Of a stretch of DNA of 64,000 nucleotides, positions 34,821 to 41,879 are shown one piece after another; within the stretch, counting starts at the first letter, position 1; each line of letters begins with the position of its first letter. A model generated the notes under the pieces. That model was not told where the DNA came from and made no database searches. It worked only from the letters and a program-made list of their open reading frames with translations. The stretch spans positions 868,001 through 932,000 of the forward strand of contig NZ_KB898646.1 of the NCBI RefSeq assembly GCF_000377665.1, read 5' to 3'. Source of the stretch: Vreelandella zhanjiangensis DSM 21076 (GTDB lineage Bacteria; Pseudomonadota; Gammaproteobacteria; Pseudomonadales; Halomonadaceae). The position numbers and the translations under genes were made by a program.

Positions 34821-35452
34821 GCTTACGCCCTTGGGCTATTGCCGTAACCGCGACGGTGCTTTTATTGAGCGCAGGTTGCTCTATATTGCCGGAAAGCGAT
34901 CCTGCAACGCTTTACCGCCTGCCGTCTTCAGACCCAGCGCGCAGCAGCGTAGCGCCAACGGCCATAAGTGGTCAGAAACGCTTGGGCATTGCAGCACCCG
35001 AGGCGGGATATCTGTTAAGCAGTAACCGCATCGTGGTGTACCCCGAGCACAACGTCGTGAATGTTTATGAAGGCGCCCGCTGGCACGAAGATATGCCGGA
35101 GCTTGTCCAGGCCAGGTTAATAGACGCCTTACAGCAAAGCCGCCTGTTTGCCAGTGTAGGCAGCGATCATATGCCGTCTGATTTACTACTGCTCAGTGAG
35201 CTGCGCCATTTTCAAAGCGAATATGACAATGGCCGCCCCAAGGCGGTTATTCAGCTGGATGTACAGCTTGTAGAAGCCAGCGCGCGGACGCCTATTGCCT
35301 CGCAAAGCTTTAGTGCCACAAGCCAAGCCGCAGACGTTGAAATTCCCTCGGTCGTGGATGCCTTTGGACGCGCCAGCGATACGCTTACCGAACAGCTCAC
35401 CACATGGCTTTCAGAGAATGCCCAAACGGTCGCTGAATCTTCCAGCCCGTAA
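34817..35452 (+). CDS. Transport-associated outer-membrane lipoprotein (PqiC/ABC auxiliary type)
   Basis: A 211-residue lipoprotein with a lipobox LLSAGC giving acylated Cys21. The domain resembles the ABC-type transport auxiliary lipoprotein family (YRLPSS near the N-terminus; VYEGARWHEDMPELVQARLIDALQQS; RPKAVIQLDVQLVEA). Such proteins sit in the outer membrane and dock MCE tunnels such as PqiB. It is the fourth and last gene of the lipid transport operon and ends 20 bp from the convergent kinase gene. Confidence 0.85.
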   Translation: MSLRPWAIAVTATVLLLSAGCSILPESDPATLYRLPSSDPARSSVAPTAISGQKRLGIAAPEAGYLLSSNRIVVYPEHNVVNVYEGARWHEDMPELVQARLIDALQQSRLFASVGSDHMPSDLLLLSELRHFQSEYDNGRPKAVIQLDVQLVEASARTPIASQSFSATSQAADVEIPSVVDAFGRASDTLTEQLTTWLSENAQTVAESSSP

Positions 35453-35472
35453 GTGCGGTGTTCATGTTTAGC

Positions 35473-37317
35473 TCACTGTGCTAGCTGCTTTATATATCCC
35501 CGCGGATCGCGGGGATAATAGTGCTCTGGCTGGCGTTCCAGGTGGGTAAAAAAGCGCGTATCTTTATAAGGCATCTTCATAAATCCCGAAACACCCAAGC
35601 CTTCAATCTGGTCGACACAGGCGAGAATACTCGCCAATAGCACGCGAAACTCATCTTCCTTGGCCGGGTCCAGCAAACGGTAGTAGCTGTGAATTTTCAG
35701 ATGCTGGGGTAGCGCTTCAAAGATGATCATGCCGGTATGGTGGATATCGTTAAGTCTTTGCAGGATATCCATGATCGATTGGGGAAGCGCTAACAGCTCC
35801 TCCGGGTCAGGCCCATCCTCAAAATAACTGTGCTGGCGCGTTCGATCCTCAAGCTCGGGTACCGCGCTTAACTCGTAGTTAATCGCCATCTTCACTTCAG
35901 GATAAAAGGGCTCATCGAGCGCCGTACGCTCCAAGTGTAGCGTTTGGCGGGCGTTAAACAGGCAGCTTTTAAACACCCCCTGGCGATGAATCGCCCGAGC
36001 CAGGTGCACCATGTTATTGACGGCCTCGATGAACGCAGGCTTCAGAGCTGGGTCGTGAAGGTTTAACGACGAATCGATATACACGCCATCGCGTTCCCAG
36101 CGCACAGCCAAGCCACCCACCACCGGGTATTTGCCCAAGCGACTTACGGCGGCCAGGAAGGCTTTTTCAGTCTCCCCCATCCCCTGCATAAACTGCTTAT
36201 AGTAGCGGTCAAGCTGTACGTCATTGACGTCGTTTAAGGTTTCCTGAACGTTGGCTTCGCGCAGAAACGCCTTGCGAGAGCTATAAACCACGGTGTCGAT
36301 TTCTTGTTTGGAGGAGCGCGCCCAGACCGGCACCAGTGGCGTTTTTAGACTAACCGGCAGGTCAATCATGACCATCTTGGAAAGCCTGGGCATCGCGCTT
36401 AAAAAATAGTCACCGGCTTTACGACGCACCTGCGGGTTGGGGTCCAGCATGCCGTCTAGAGTTTTTGCAAACTCCATGGGCAGACCTAACGAGCTTGCCG
36501 GTATTGCCCGATGACCAAATCGACATGACTGGGCTGACGCCAGAGCATAAAGCGTTCCGGCGGCGCCCTGCTCATCAAAGCGTGGCGAAGACAGCGCGCC
36601 GTTGAGCTGCTCTTCGCCAATAAAGTAGACATCTCCCAGACGGGCATTGGTCTGCTGCAGGTTATCGGACATCAGCTCCATCACGTTAGCGCCAACGAAC
36701 TGCAGCTCGCTATCCAGCTGAGCAAATACTGAAGAGCCCCAATCGATAAGCCCAATCGACTCATCCAGCGGATCAAACACAATGTTGGAGGGCTTAATAT
36801 CACCATGCACCACGGGCCGACACTGTGGCCCTACTTCGCGGCGCAGCGCTTTTAAAATATCCGCCAGCTGCTGCGCGATACGCATAATCAGACGCGGAGA
36901 CAAACGCCCTTCTCTCAGGGATATTTGCTCTAGATTCCATCCTGGGGCGCGCTCCATCACCAGGATCGACTGGCCTCTGGCGCGCTGGTAGGTAATCAGT
37001 TTAGGAATGCGGGGGTGAGAGACTTGCTCCAGCATGAACGCCTCTTCTTCCAGACGTTCTTGCAGGTGAGTGGGTAGCGTAATACGGGAAAACTTGAACA
37101 CATAGTGAACTGAGTCGTTTCCCTGGGGCACGCTTCCCGCAAAGACAAAGCCATAGGCGCCCTTACCGATCAGCTCGATATCCCGATAACCCAACTGGGT
37201 AAGCTGTGCCTGGCACAGCGCTACCCAGTCTTTAAGCTTTTGGGCATCGTGATGGTTCAGCAGATAAACCGACTGCTCTTCGGGTATATAGAACTGCTGT
37301 AACGGCGCCTGCGGCAT
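35473..37317 (-). CDS. Hanks-type serine/threonine protein kinase with C-terminal domain of unknown function
   Basis: A 614-residue cytoplasmic protein with no membrane helix. The kinase domain spans about residues 45-310: glycine loop GKGAYGFVF (51-59), Lys75 in VFKFS, catalytic loop HGDIKPSN (171-178, Asp173), and DWG (192-194) in place of DFG. The remaining 300 residues are not recognised. It follows the E2 gene of the 2-oxoacid dehydrogenase by 23 bp with no terminator, so co-transcription is likely. A regulatory role toward that complex is an inference. It faces the lipid transport operon. Confidence 0.85.
   Translation of the reverse strand: MPQAPLQQFYIPEEQSVYLLNHHDAQKLKDWVALCQAQLTQLGYRDIELIGKGAYGFVFAGSVPQGNDSVHYVFKFSRITLPTHLQERLEEEAFMLEQVSHPRIPKLITYQRARGQSILVMERAPGWNLEQISLREGRLSPRLIMRIAQQLADILKALRREVGPQCRPVVHGDIKPSNIVFDPLDESIGLIDWGSSVFAQLDSELQFVGANVMELMSDNLQQTNARLGDVYFIGEEQLNGALSSPRFDEQGAAGTLYALASAQSCRFGHRAIPASSLGLPMEFAKTLDGMLDPNPQVRRKAGDYFLSAMPRLSKMVMIDLPVSLKTPLVPVWARSSKQEIDTVVYSSRKAFLREANVQETLNDVNDVQLDRYYKQFMQGMGETEKAFLAAVSRLGKYPVVGGLAVRWERDGVYIDSSLNLHDPALKPAFIEAVNNMVHLARAIHRQGVFKSCLFNARQTLHLERTALDEPFYPEVKMAINYELSAVPELEDRTRQHSYFEDGPDPEELLALPQSIMDILQRLNDIHHTGMIIFEALPQHLKIHSYYRLLDPAKEDEFRVLLASILACVDQIEGLGVSGFMKMPYKDTRFFTHLERQPEHYYPRDPRGYIKQLAQ
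35495..35517. terminator. Perfect hairpin within the kinase gene 3' end
   Basis: TATCCCCGCG / CGCGGGGATA with a 3-base loop, in the last codons of the kinase gene and 43 bp after the convergent lipoprotein gene. No T-run follows on either strand; it may stop or stabilise transcripts from either side. Confidence 0.35.
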
Positions 37318-37340
37318 TCGTTAGCCCCTGCGATGACGTT

Positions 37341-38648
37341 TTAGCCCAAATAAAGCAGCATCGTTTCAGGCGCTTCCAGAAAACCTTTCCACGTATTACA
37401 GAAGCGGGCAATGGTCCCGCCATCAATAAACCGGTGATCGCCCGCCCAGGTAATCGTCATGATGGCACGGCGCTGAACGACGCCCTGATCATCAAAGCGC
37501 GGTAGCCACTGGGTTTTGCCTATCGCCACAATCGCCGCTTCCGGAGCGTTGATGATGGGGGCGGCATACGTGCCTCCCAAGGCACCAATATTGGAAATAC
37601 TAATCGTGCCTCCTTTAAGGTCGGCCTGATCAACACGCCCTTCACGCGCAGAGGCGGTCAAACGGCCTACTTCACGGGCAATCTCGAATAGCGTTAAGCG
37701 CTCAACGCCTTTGACGTTGGGTACTAGCAAACCTGCCTTGCTGTCTACCGCCATGCCGATATTGCACTGGGGATAGTAGTGCAGCGCGTCGCCAGCCTCG
37801 TTTAGCTGAGCATTGAGTATCGGAGTTTCGGCAACGGCCAATGCCATTGCTTTCATAAAGAAAGGCATTAAGGTGAGGCGTTGCCCCTGAGCGTCGACCT
37901 GGGGTTTTAACCGTTCGCGCAGGGCCAATAGCTCGGTGACATCGATCTCTTCGCCATAATGAAAATGTGGAATCGTGGTGGCCGAAACCACCATGCGCTT
38001 GGCCATTACAGCACGCACGCCCCGCAAGGGCTCAATTCTGGGTGGCTCCTGGCCCAGGGCGCGGGCTTCAGACTGATCGGATACCGGCTTATCGGGCGCT
38101 TCTACTGTCTTGCCTTGATCAAGATACGCTAGCACATCTTCTTTAAGCACCCGGCCATCTTTACCGCTACCTACCATATCGGTCAGCTTGACGCCGTGTT
38201 CGCGCACCAGCCGCCTCACGGCGGGGCTGGCAGGCACCTTGCCCTTATCGCTATAGACACCTTCGCCAGACGCTTTGGGCGGTGCAGCACCGGGCAGCTC
38301 CGCGGCGTCCTCTACTGCGTTATTAAAGGCTTGAGACGGCGCCTGGGAAGGGTGAGTCGCCGAACGATCATCCTCGTGGGCCTCTTGAAGCTGGGTGGTG
38401 GACTCTCCCTCGCTCTCGCCCTGATAGGCATATAACGGAGCATGCACTTTGGCAATCTGCCCCTGGGCCACGTAAAGCTTGGTCACTACGCCAGCTTCCG
38501 GCGCAGTGATTTCTACCAGCGCTTTGTCGGTCATTACTTCGACAATGGGCTGGTCTTCCTCGATCTGGTCGCCTTCCGCGACCCGCCACTCCACCACTTC
38601 ACACTCGACGATGCCTTCACCGATATCGGGCAGCTTAAAATCGCTCAT
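37341..38648 (-). CDS. bkdB: Branched-chain 2-oxoacid dehydrogenase E2 (dihydrolipoyl acyltransferase)
   Basis: A 435-residue E2. The ATG at 38648 is chosen because it starts MSDFKLPDIGEG at the lipoyl domain with GGAGAG upstream; an in-frame ATG at 38663 adds five residues. The lipoyl lysine is Lys42 in MTDKALVEI. The peripheral-subunit-binding domain (ASPAVRRLVREHGVKL) lies near residues 140-180, and the catalytic domain ends in DHRFIDGG (His405, Asp409). It transfers the branched acyl group to CoA. There is one lipoyl domain. No E3 gene is nearby, so lipoamide dehydrogenase must come from elsewhere. Confidence 0.9.
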   Translation of the reverse strand: MSDFKLPDIGEGIVECEVVEWRVAEGDQIEEDQPIVEVMTDKALVEITAPEAGVVTKLYVAQGQIAKVHAPLYAYQGESEGESTTQLQEAHEDDRSATHPSQAPSQAFNNAVEDAAELPGAAPPKASGEGVYSDKGKVPASPAVRRLVREHGVKLTDMVGSGKDGRVLKEDVLAYLDQGKTVEAPDKPVSDQSEARALGQEPPRIEPLRGVRAVMAKRMVVSATTIPHFHYGEEIDVTELLALRERLKPQVDAQGQRLTLMPFFMKAMALAVAETPILNAQLNEAGDALHYYPQCNIGMAVDSKAGLLVPNVKGVERLTLFEIAREVGRLTASAREGRVDQADLKGGTISISNIGALGGTYAAPIINAPEAAIVAIGKTQWLPRFDDQGVVQRRAIMTITWAGDHRFIDGGTIARFCNTWKGFLEAPETMLLYLG

Positions 38649-38686
38649 TGTGTTTCTCTCCATGCGTTCTTAGGCGCTTTAAACCG

Positions 38687-39664
38687 CTAAAAATTAACGC
38701 TTTCGCGAATCGCTTCAAAAATTTTCAGGTGGTCCGGGAAATACTCTTTTTCCAGTACTAGTGGAAAAGGCGTATCAAGCCCGGTTACCCGTCTAATCGG
38801 CGATTCCAGGTAGAGAAAACAACGCTCTTGTATGGTCGCCGCTATTTCACCGGCAAACCCGCCGGTTAACGGCGCTTCATGACTGACCACTAACCGGCCC
38901 GTTTTCAGCACTGACTCGGCCACGGTATCGGCATCCCAGGGAAGCAACGATCGAAGATCTATGACTTCGCAGGTAATGCCCTGCTCTTCAGCAAGCTCTA
39001 CCGCTTTACCAATCACTTCCATCTGCGCGCCCCATCCCACTAGGGTAATATCACTGCCCTCCTTGATGACTTCCGCCTCGCCGATGGGCAGCTGATAATC
39101 TTCTTCAGGTACTTCACCAACCGAGGCGCGATAAAGACGTTTGGGCTCCATAAACAGCACTGGGTCTGGGTCGCGTATCGCCGCCAGCAGTAATCCTTTG
39201 GCTTGGTAGGGGTTGCGCGGCACGACTACTTTCAGACCGGGCGTATGCGTAAAGTAGGCTTCGGGGGACTGAGAGTGATAAAGGCCCCCGGCAATACCGC
39301 CGCCATAAGGCGTACGAATTGTAAGCCCACCTACGTTAAACAAATCGCCGGAACGATAGCGGTATTTGGCGGTTTCATTAACGATCTGATCAAAGGCGGG
39401 AAAGATATAATCAGCAAACTGAATTTCTGCTACGGGAACGGAGCCTTGCGCGGCTAAACCGTTGGCAAAGCCAATAATGCCCTGCTCGACCAAGGGCGTA
39501 TTGAAACAGCGTGCCTTGCCGTATTTTTCCTGAAGATGGCTGGTAGCGCGAAACACACCACCGAAAATGCCCACGTCCTCACCAAAGCAGATGACTTTTT
39601 CATCCTCCGCCATGGCAATATCCAGCGCATTATTAATCGCCTGTAGCATATTCATCGTGGGCAT
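38687..39664 (-). CDS. bkdA2: Branched-chain 2-oxoacid dehydrogenase E1 beta subunit
   Basis: A 325-residue E1-beta starting [18 protein letters not shown]; a longer ORF reaches back into the alpha gene. AGGAGG lies about 10 bases upstream inside the alpha gene's end, and the ATG follows the alpha stop by one base. Seen are [54 protein letters not shown] and [15 protein letters not shown], all typical of branched-chain E1-beta. With E1-alpha it decarboxylates the 2-oxoacids of Val, Leu and Ile. Confidence 0.93.
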
Positions 39665-39665
39665 A

Positions 39666-40871
39666 TTACGCGTCCTCCTGCGGGCTGGTGGCGGCATCCA
39701 CGTCTAAATCCAACGATTGCATTCCGCGCGGGTATGCCTCGGGATAACGGCGAATATGGCTTTTCAGGTGATCGAACTGGCGCTGCAGCGCTGGGGTAAC
39801 GTCGGCATAGACATCGCTAACCAGGCTATCCAGAGGCGGAGACGGGCGTTTCTCAGCGCGCTTCATGGTTTCGAGCACTTCACGACGCAGGGTTTCCTGC
39901 AGGTGGGTCTCTTCCTCCTCACTCCACCAGCCCTTTTTAAGCATCCACTTCTGCATACGCAGCACAGGGTCTTTGAGCCGCCACGTCTCTTCTTCACTTT
40001 TCAGCCGGTAACCCGACGGGTCATCAGACGATGAATGCGCCGCAAGGCGATACGTCATGGCCTCAATTAACACGGGCTGATTTTGCTCAACGGCGATTTT
40101 TCGCGCCCGTTGCGTGGCCTCAAAAACCGCCAGCACATCGTTACCATCCACGCGAATAACGTGCATATGGTAGCCAAACGCACGCGGTGCGATGCCGTCG
40201 GCGGCAAACTGCTCAACCGCCGGGGTGGAAATGGCGTAGCCATTATTACGGCAGAAAAAAATGACCGGCACTTTATGCACCGAGGCCATATTCAGCGCCG
40301 CATGAAAATCGCCTTCCGAGGCGGCGCCTTCGCCAAAAAAGGTCAGCGTGCAGTTACCGTCTCCGGCAAGCTTCTGGCCATATGCGTAGCCTGTCGCCTG
40401 AGGAATTTGCGTCGCCAGCGGTGAGGAAATTGTCATGTAGTGGAGCTTGCGCGAGCCGTAGTGAACCGGCATCTGGCGGCCTTTGCCATAATCCAGCTCA
40501 TTACCAAATAGCTGGTTCATAAATTCATCAATGGAAAAGCCGCGATACATCAGAGCACCCTGTTCACGGTACTGGGCCATGATCATATCGGTGTCGCTCA
40601 GGGCAGCGGTAGAGCCGATAACGGCGGCTTCTTCACCGACACACTGCATATAGAAGCTAAGCCGCCCCTGGCGTTGCGCAGCCATCATGCGCTCGTCAAG
40701 AATCCGGGTGGAAAGCATGGCGTGATAAAGCCTGCGAGCATGGTCACGTTCAAGCGCCGGCTCTTCGGCGCCGCTATACAGCTCGCCTTCAGGATCAAGC
40801 ACGCTGAAGGTGTCAATGGACAGCTCATCACCGGTCATGAATGTTGGCTGGTGTACGTAGTGCGTCATCAT
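39666..40871 (-). CDS. bkdA1: Branched-chain 2-oxoacid dehydrogenase E1 alpha subunit
   Basis: A 401-residue thiamine diphosphate enzyme. The TPP motif begins GDGN (171-174) and ends with the asparagines of [13 protein letters not shown] (Asn209/210). [17 protein letters not shown] is characteristic of branched-chain E1-alpha. The loop [19 protein letters not shown] (about 271-289) is the counterpart of the human BCKDHA loop that is phosphorylated by its kinase, and Ser280-282 are present. First gene of the operon E1alpha-E1beta-E2-kinase. The 192-bp gap upstream shows no regulator gene and no promoter I would defend. Confidence 0.93.
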
Positions 40872-41063
40872 TATTGTCCTTGTTTTGCCCCTTTTGAAGG
40901 CAGTGTTGTTGGTGATGACCTTTTATGCCAGTGGATTTATCTGGTTTAAGTCAACGCAACTACTGCGACAGTAACGCAGCACAAGACAATAAGGGATTCA
41001 ACTTAAGACGAAGAGACACGCGACAGCGCGCTTTGAGATGAGGCGACTTAGGCAAGGCGCCGC

Positions 41064-41879
41064 TTAACGTGTCGAATGACGGGCCAAATCCCCTGGGGAG
41101 GACGACAAATGCAGGCGTATCTTGCTTTGTAAGGCATCAAACAGGCTATCGATCGTCAGTGCCAGCAGTGCAATCAGTAGCGCTCCCTGAATAACATACG
41201 CCATATTGCCATTGATGATGCCGGCAATAATCGGGTCGCCCAAATTGCTGGCCCCAACTGTTGCCCCCAAGGCAGCGGTGGCAATATTGATCGTCACCGA
41301 TGTACGAATCCCGGCCAGAATAACCGGCGCGGCAAGCGGAAGTTCTACCTGATAAAGCGTTTGTAACGGCGTCATGCCCATGGCATGGGCAGCCGTTTTC
41401 ATATCGGCGTCTACATCCTGAAGACCTGTGAGCGTATTGCGGACAATCGGCAGCAGGCCATACAGCATTAACGCCATGATAATGGGCAGCGTACCAAAAC
41501 CCAGCACCGGCACCGCCAGCGCCAGTACCGCCACCGGTGGAAACGTTTGCCCAAGCGATGCAAGCTGCGACACTAAGGGTAAAAAGTCTTGGCCTTTTTT
41601 GCGCGTCACCGCAATACCCGCGCCAACGCCAAGGCTAATAGTGACAATCGCCGCCACTCCCACCACCAGCAGATGACGGCCAAGCAGATCGTAGAAATGC
41701 GCGCGCTGATAAATCACCTGCCGGGCATTAGGTTCAAACCACCGAAAGAGCCCTTCTGCATACGGGATACCCAGCACACAGATCGCCAGCAATAAGCCCC
41801 AAAGTAGCGGCTGCCCCCATAAGCGATTACTGGGGGATTGCGCTGACAGGCGAGCAGGCTGTTTTACGTTAGGCTTCAC
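41064..41879 (-). CDS. yehW: ABC permease, OsmU/YehW type (compatible-solute importer)
   Basis: A 271-residue permease. I choose the GTG at 41879 (product VKPNVKQPARLS) because AAAGGAAG precedes it at normal spacing; the longer ORF runs back through the ATPase gene. It has six or so helices and the EAA loop AHAMGMTPLQTLYQVELPLAAPVI. GIRTSVTINIATAALGATVGASNLGDPIIAG is typical of glycine betaine/choline permeases. Last gene of the four-gene importer operon; it overlaps the ATPase gene by 11 bp. Confidence 0.85.
   Translation of the reverse strand: MKPNVKQPARLSAQSPSNRLWGQPLLWGLLLAICVLGIPYAEGLFRWFEPNARQVIYQRAHFYDLLGRHLLVVGVAAIVTISLGVGAGIAVTRKKGQDFLPLVSQLASLGQTFPPVAVLALAVPVLGFGTLPIIMALMLYGLLPIVRNTLTGLQDVDADMKTAAHAMGMTPLQTLYQVELPLAAPVILAGIRTSVTINIATAALGATVGASNLGDPIIAGIINGNMAYVIQGALLIALLALTIDSLFDALQSKIRLHLSSSPGDLARHSTR

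Follow-up and report, generated by a model that had tools for sequence, protein, structure and literature searches.

Control of 2-oxoacid dehydrogenases by kinases is known from mitochondria, where it is exerted by GHKL kinases, and control by a dedicated kinase is, in textbook terms, a trait of mitochondria; BCKDK, the mitochondrial kinase of the branched-chain 2-oxoacid dehydrogenase (BCKDH), belongs to the GHKL superfamily. Regulation of the bacterial bkd genes has been described mainly at the level of transcription. In actinobacteria, PknG acts via OdhI on 2-oxoglutarate dehydrogenase, according to the accessible part of one report (PMC8546545), and the accessible part of another describes the E1-alpha subunit of pyruvate dehydrogenase as a phosphoprotein in Mycoplasma genitalium (PMC3639085). 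Here we analyse a block of four genes in a 64,000-nucleotide stretch of the genome of Vreelandella zhanjiangensis DSM 21076 (contig NZ_KB898646.1, positions 868,001 to 932,000; hereafter the window). The block runs head-to-tail on the minus strand from 40871 to 35473 in the order E1-alpha, E1-beta, E2, kinase, and sequence comparison makes it probable that the four genes specify a BCKDH of the mitochondrial type together with a Hanks-type Ser/Thr kinase dedicated to this complex. Kinase and mitochondria-like BCKDH occur as a pair in Halomonas-type bacteria and several related families, often as adjacent genes, and a functional dedication of the kinase to the complex or its pathway is very likely.

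Since an operon alone is insufficient evidence for such a tie, co-occurrence was tested in samples taken from the phylum, the class, the order of genome G139 and the family, which overlap partly and whose members, being relatives, are not independent. A mitochondrial-type E1-alpha was called at 480 bits or more, the next E1-alpha class reaching at most 265 bits in all samples. Among the 249 genomes of the phylum sample, 12 carried both genes, 237 neither and none only one. The family sample (n = 161) comprised 123 genomes with both, 37 with neither and a single one (G497) with the kinase only, on a contig that starts inside E1-beta. In the order sample (n = 177), 33 genomes had both genes and 142 neither, the two solos being the kinase of G834 (93% complete, in 450 contigs) and the E1-alpha of G899 (80% complete). 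The kinase was found in six of the 369 genomes of the class sample and the mitochondrial-type E1-alpha in five, all of them among the six. With genera as units, those having the kinase were the same as those having this E1-alpha (14 of 75 in the order sample, 16 of 24 in the family sample). Over all samples, both genes were present in eight families (f1, f141, f167, f183, f194, f244, f247 and f251).

The initial annotation had proposed to examine whether kinase and bkd genes stay adjacent across genomes, and they do in most relatives: in 118 of the 123 family-sample genomes E1-alpha is followed on its own strand by the kinase at a distance of no more than 6 kb. The five exceptions, all from genus g273, have the two genes 17–28 kb apart (three genomes) or on separate contigs (two). 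By the same measure 15 of the 33 pairs of the order sample are linked and 18 unlinked, six of the latter on one contig and 12 on different contigs. All 11 pairs of f194 are unlinked (five on one contig but 1.4–2.0 Mb apart, six on different contigs), as are all six of f244 (each on different contigs), and 0.29 Mb separate kinase and E1-alpha in G868. In total, 23 genomes keep both genes without linkage, nine on the same contig at distances from 17 kb to 2 Mb and 14 on different contigs; because the pair is retained in the former nine, physical linkage is not what holds it together there. At finer scale, 77 of 80 loci have no more than about 200 nt between the estimated end of E2 and the kinase start, the remaining three having spacings of 2.1 kb (L055), 7.6 kb (L065) and 0.7 kb (L081). 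As these 80, the best of 284 relatives, are all named Halomonas, Vreelandella, Billgrantia or Halovibrio, the wider genome samples weigh more. A permease gene upstream of the block, used as a control, departs from the kinase/E1-alpha pattern, being present in five of 20 genomes (three of 11 with the kinase, two of nine without), and nine loci fetched from five other families (L089, L090, L091, L125–L128, L149 and L150) contained, out of 17 window genes tried, none but the four. In one genome (G408), the kinase gene follows by 4 nt the gene for another thiamine-diphosphate enzyme (L096:6127-9646), on a contig other than that of bkd.

Kinase and E1-alpha trees, judged by eye, show no conflict between starred branches; a starred pair in the kinase tree, G682 with G504, does not appear in the E1-alpha tree. 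G504, which belongs to the window's genus (L110), groups with two f183 genomes (L127, L128) in both trees. Kinase distances correlate with those of E1-alpha (0.91), E2 (0.78) and, only at 0.44, E1-beta. We give these values little weight, since E1-beta fits E1-alpha itself poorly (0.43) and the comparison had no unrelated gene as a control.

The E1-alpha partner of the kinase appears to be of the mitochondrial type, nearer to BCKDHA than to Pseudomonas BkdA1. Against solved chains the window protein scores 397.9 bits with 1dtw (human BCKDHA), 234.2 with 2bp7 and 226.5 with 1um9, which we take to be the Pseudomonas putida and Thermus thermophilus enzymes, respectively. In the phylum sample, the 12 genomes score 491–916 bits and the next genome 265. 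Kinase-paired E1-alphas are 48–55% identical to human BCKDHA and 31–42% to the E1-alphas of kinase-free bacteria, which by these comparisons represent another type. A tree built from one human, 33 kinase-paired and 11 kinase-free sequences (a twelfth kinase-free one was removed by a length filter) splits the kinase-free set from the kinase-paired set plus human BCKDHA with support of 100/100; meeting long branches were flagged in it, the human one included, making the exact human position unsure. A preference of the complex for branched-chain keto acids is inferred from these relationships, the dehydrogenase proteins of the window scoring below the cut-offs of the NCBIfam models. Window E2 comprises one lipoyl, an E3-binding and a catalytic domain, and its best solved relatives are a pyruvate dehydrogenase E2 (3duf, 252.9 bits over the full length) and the core of a BCKDH E2 (2ihw, 230 bits). 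The number of lipoyl motifs varies, with two in 16 of 32 kinase-paired loci and one in the window; loci examined for this include L047, L059, L072, L089, L090, L100, L111, L122, L125 and L128.

The features of the block are, in window coordinates:

39666..40871, minus strand: E1-alpha of a mitochondrial-type BCKDH (type assigned by similarity), 401 aa; PF00676, 327.8 bits
40020..40037, minus strand: HSSSDD loop of E1-alpha, residues 279-284, from alignment to the 1dtw chain
38687..39664, minus strand: E1-beta, 325 aa from ATG 39664; PF02779 and PF02780
37341..38663, minus strand: E2 acyltransferase, 440 aa; PF00364, PF02817 and PF00198
37318..37340, minus strand: gap of 23 bp between E2 and kinase
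35473..37317, minus strand: Hanks-type Ser/Thr kinase with an unassigned C-terminal region, 614 aa; PF00069
36382..37188, minus strand: kinase domain, residues 44-312, with invariant catalytic residues and a structural match
35476..36381, minus strand: C-terminal region of the kinase, residues 313-614, with the motifs HSYFEDGxDPxE (496-507), HTGxIIFE (527-534) and MKxPxK (580-585)

Most of what the initial annotation had said of this layout stands. The spacing between E2 and kinase is indeed 23 bp, the HSSSDD loop is at residues 279-284 of E1-alpha, and a simple consensus scan of 35300-41200, in which the total number of sites was no greater than in shuffled sequence, placed no promoter- or terminator-like match in the gap that had been described as terminator-free. 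Its assignment of the kinase to the Hanks type is borne out by a PF00069 score of 62.1 bits against a curated cut-off of 31.7 (Pfam; profile positions 1-153 of 263), and its remark that this is not a kinase of the mitochondrial BCKDK type by the lack of any GHKL or BCDHK_Adom3 (PF10436) domain in Pfam at E<=0.1. A search of 20 genomes with PF10436 matched none, and the control matched nowhere either, so that absence from these genomes is not established. The mechanically called open reading frame (ORF) of E1-beta begins at 39697, within E1-alpha, and the likelier start would be ATG 39664, directly after the E1-alpha stop and preceded by GGAGG. An OpuC-type ABC transporter is encoded upstream of the block. 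At the other end, MlaE, MlaD and PqiC-type genes belong to a convergent operon that stops at 35452, leaving 20 bp to the 3′ end of the kinase gene. No E3 gene was seen among the ORFs of 28-48 kb of the window, no search being made elsewhere. The host genome measures 4.06 Mb; among named relatives, Halomonas colorata and other Halomonas/Vreelandella are closest to it, with a 99% identical kinase.

All 20 diverse members of the kinase family match the PF00069 model. In their alignment, which covers seven families and identities down to 53%, GKG (51-53), K75, E92, HGDIKPSN (171-178) and DWG (192-194) are invariant, and the downstream stretches GDVYFIGxEQL and SSPRFDEQG invariant or nearly so; given this conservation of the catalytic residues, the protein is predicted to be an active kinase. 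Near-invariant positions number 141 across 33 kinase sequences. The modelled kinase domain resembles Rad53, PknB and Aurora, the N-terminal part of the model aligning to Rad53 (5xzw) with a VIA-align Z of 14.9 (170 aligned residues, root-mean-square deviation (rmsd) 3.0); the full-length model has an overall mean predicted local distance difference test (pLDDT) of only 52, and the alignments behind it and behind a separate model of the C-terminal region contained Halomonadaceae sequences only. The last ~280 residues appear to belong to no recognised family. Residues 336-614 of the window copy have no match in Pfam or NCBIfam, and their profile none among PDB sequences at E<=10, the best of the weak matches in single members of the 20 being DUF4417 (E 6e-4). 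The three C-terminal motifs are nonetheless invariant or nearly so in the 20 kinases. The model of this region (mean pLDDT 59) hints at two alpha-beta-beta-alpha-beta repeats; Foldseek returned nothing for it at E<=0.001, and from the best VIA-align match (8guo; Z 4.6, 82 aligned, rmsd 4.7) no conclusion is drawn.

The only other PF00069 match of the host genome is a 572-aa protein (L094:1945-3663) that has HQQ for HRD and DFS for DFG and is perhaps a pseudokinase to judge from these motifs; its N-terminal half looks PP2C-like by eye and has no Pfam match. Proteins of ~570-630 aa with the phosphatase domain PF13672, encoded in other kinase-bearing genomes, may be its relatives. Among the matches listed, PF13672 occurred in 13 of the 15 genomes that have the kinase and in one of the five that lack it (14 of 20 in all), a possible association in a sample that is small and clumped by family.

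From these data, one can propose that the kinase acts by phosphorylating the complex on one of its subunits, E1 being the likeliest, and thereby switches the flux of branched-chain keto acids. The switch would follow a signal read by the conserved C-terminal region of the kinase, or docking through that region, and E3 would presumably be supplied from elsewhere. If one were to guess, the effect would be inhibitory and, like that in mitochondria, exerted on the active-site loop. Direct phosphorylation of a complex subunit seems to us rather likely, phosphorylation of E1-alpha at the site-1 loop doubtful. Equally tentative is the more far-reaching scenario of convergence, in which Gammaproteobacteria would have independently evolved a Hanks kinase with a private docking C-terminal domain that phosphorylates the same loop serine of E1-alpha.

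A number of observations weigh against this interpretation. Sister species are not independent, so Fisher values overstate the co-occurrence, and G362 of the class sample lacks the mitochondrial-type E1-alpha but has a C-terminal kinase fragment of 86 aa where a contig ends. In G471, one of the 123 family-sample genomes with both genes, the kinase match is broken (32% identity, three stop codons); from the end of E1-beta onwards, ~6480 to 16000 of L109, this genome has low-identity sequence of odd composition, which looks like a corrupted assembly rather than a truly diverged kinase. Ten others of the 124 kinase matches were reported with one internal stop, taken to be at the gene end because their open frames span 610–778 aa. 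Separation of kinase and E1-alpha is no more than likely in the 14 pairs on different contigs. G512, from the window's genus, speaks in itself for the pairing: kinase and E1-alpha are found nowhere in its genome, and the site, with glnS, cysS and the OpuC genes in unchanged order, lacks all four genes. The site also lacks, however, the MlaE operon, IclR, a thiolase and a dehydrogenase, a gap wider than the four genes. The catalytic loop reads HGD instead of HRD in all 20 kinases, making this a non-RD kinase, although non-RD kinases still count as Hanks-type. Among the matches listed, no PF13672 phosphatase was found in the window's own genome. Co-occurrence moreover leaves the substrate unnamed, and another protein of the same pathway could be the target. 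Lastly, Ser280 of the HSSSDD loop, which we take to align with mitochondrial phosphorylation site 1, is invariant in all 33 kinase-paired and all 11 kinase-free E1-alphas, and thus the loop neither supports nor excludes being the target.

Accordingly, of the regulatory link put forward initially, the association of kinase and complex holds, in other families even where the genes are unlinked, while the choice of the HSSSDD loop as target finds no support in sequence: its serine is there without a kinase as well, and the position ten residues further on, presumably mitochondrial site 2, is Leu in the window (Ser/Thr in 28 of 33 kinase-paired and three of 11 kinase-free rows). A comparison of kinase-paired rows (33 E1-alpha, 30 E1-beta, 33 E2) with kinase-free rows (11, 12 and 12) for Ser, Thr or Tyr conserved only in the former returned several positions, among them E1-alpha S150 and S185, E1-beta S53 and E2 T230, but no clear site; human BCKDHA also has S150 and S185, which look structural.

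Other explanations have to be set against a kinase acting on the complex. The kinase could serve branched-chain amino-acid catabolism or nitrogen/carbon status by phosphorylating a regulator, a transporter or a later enzyme. This would account equally well for the co-occurrence and the unlinked copies, and would sit well with the G408 kinase behind the gene of a different thiamine-diphosphate enzyme, whereas the nine loci of five other families share only the four genes, kinase last; we hold it to be possible though not probable. The co-occurrence might instead reflect only common descent and a joint transfer of the four genes, the kinase having no functional link to the enzyme. The sampled genomes do share ancestry, and that G504 falls with f183 in both trees suggests that the block was transferred as a whole. 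Descent and transfer would, however, hardly keep the pair together where its genes lie apart or on different contigs, as in f194, f244, G868 and g273, nor lead one to expect solos only in fragmented or incomplete genomes or at contig ends (G834 and G899, both from f244, G497 and G362) and a neighbouring permease without the same pattern, so that this explanation appears very unlikely.

We regard as similarly improbable that a general housekeeping or stress kinase, or a defence kinase of the PD-T4-6 type, has come to lie in the operon by chance. The kinase domain does match PD-T4-6 and other kinase models, but for the 25 of 30 PADLOC matches listed the best stretches all fall within residues 34-301, in the generic kinase domain, and none in the C-terminal region, which disfavours PD-T4-6; further, no kinase match was found in the 237 phylum-sample genomes lacking this E1-alpha nor, at E<=1e-15, among 72,556 plasmid records, and the many near-invariant positions speak against a chance passenger. 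That the kinase acts on a small molecule and not on a protein seems scarcely credible. The cut-off of PF01636 (APH) is exceeded too (34.6 against 23.2 bits in Pfam), and HGD is common in small-molecule kinases; yet the PF00069 score is far higher, the catalytic loop takes the form DxKPxN in Ser/Thr kinases, and the modelled domain has its likenesses among protein kinases such as Rad53, PknB and Aurora.

A kinase acting on the complex itself, as favoured here, would mean that BCKDH control can be studied in a tractable bacterial model, its pairing with a complex of the mitochondrial type extending over eight bacterial families. It would also give an orphan kinase family a likely role, and a bacterial Hanks kinase, a class whose substrates are often unknown, a defined substrate hypothesis, and convergence on one phosphorylation switch would become directly testable. 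In the literature searched, which lacked most subscription journals, nothing was found that links a Hanks kinase to a bacterial BCKDH. Two Shewanella papers name SO_2339-2341 and, in their accessible parts, mention no Ser/Thr kinase. A 2010 classification defines a cluster 5 of 'Gammaproteobacteria specific' kinases from Shewanella, Marinobacter, Pseudoalteromonas and Alteromonas (PMC2877116). The class and genera of this cluster fit the distribution of the window kinase, so that the two are probably the same family, matched by class and genera and not by member sequences; that paper, as far as accessible, gives the cluster neither a function nor a connection with a dehydrogenase, and the words 'dehydrogenase' and 'branched' are absent from its main text. 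From this cluster and the f194 pattern, Shewanella oneidensis MR-1 presumably has an orthologue of the window kinase.

Compared with described systems, the locus shares its gene order E1-alpha, E1-beta, E2 with the Pseudomonas-type bkd operon that L131 and L138, from the window's order, presumably carry, but these have the other E1-alpha type (38–41% identity) and no match to the window kinase. With PknG–OdhI, as described in the accessible part of that work, it has in common a bacterial Ser/Thr kinase extended by a C-terminal module and, if our interpretation is right, control of a 2-oxoacid dehydrogenase, nutrient-dependent in the PknG case. PknG, however, works through OdhI and carries tetratricopeptide repeats (TPRs), whereas no inhibitor gene was seen in the block and no TPR was found in the window kinase in Pfam at E<=0.1, which sets it apart from the PknG family. 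The likeness to mitochondrial BCKDH and BCKDK lies in the type of target complex and in a dedicated kinase gene kept with it, the difference in the kinase itself, a PF00069 protein without BCDHK or HATPase domain. Our survey suggests that bacteria control a mitochondria-like BCKDH by a dedicated kinase of another kind than that of animals, one that, from its sequence and company, would most likely work like mitochondrial BCKDK while coming from another superfamily.

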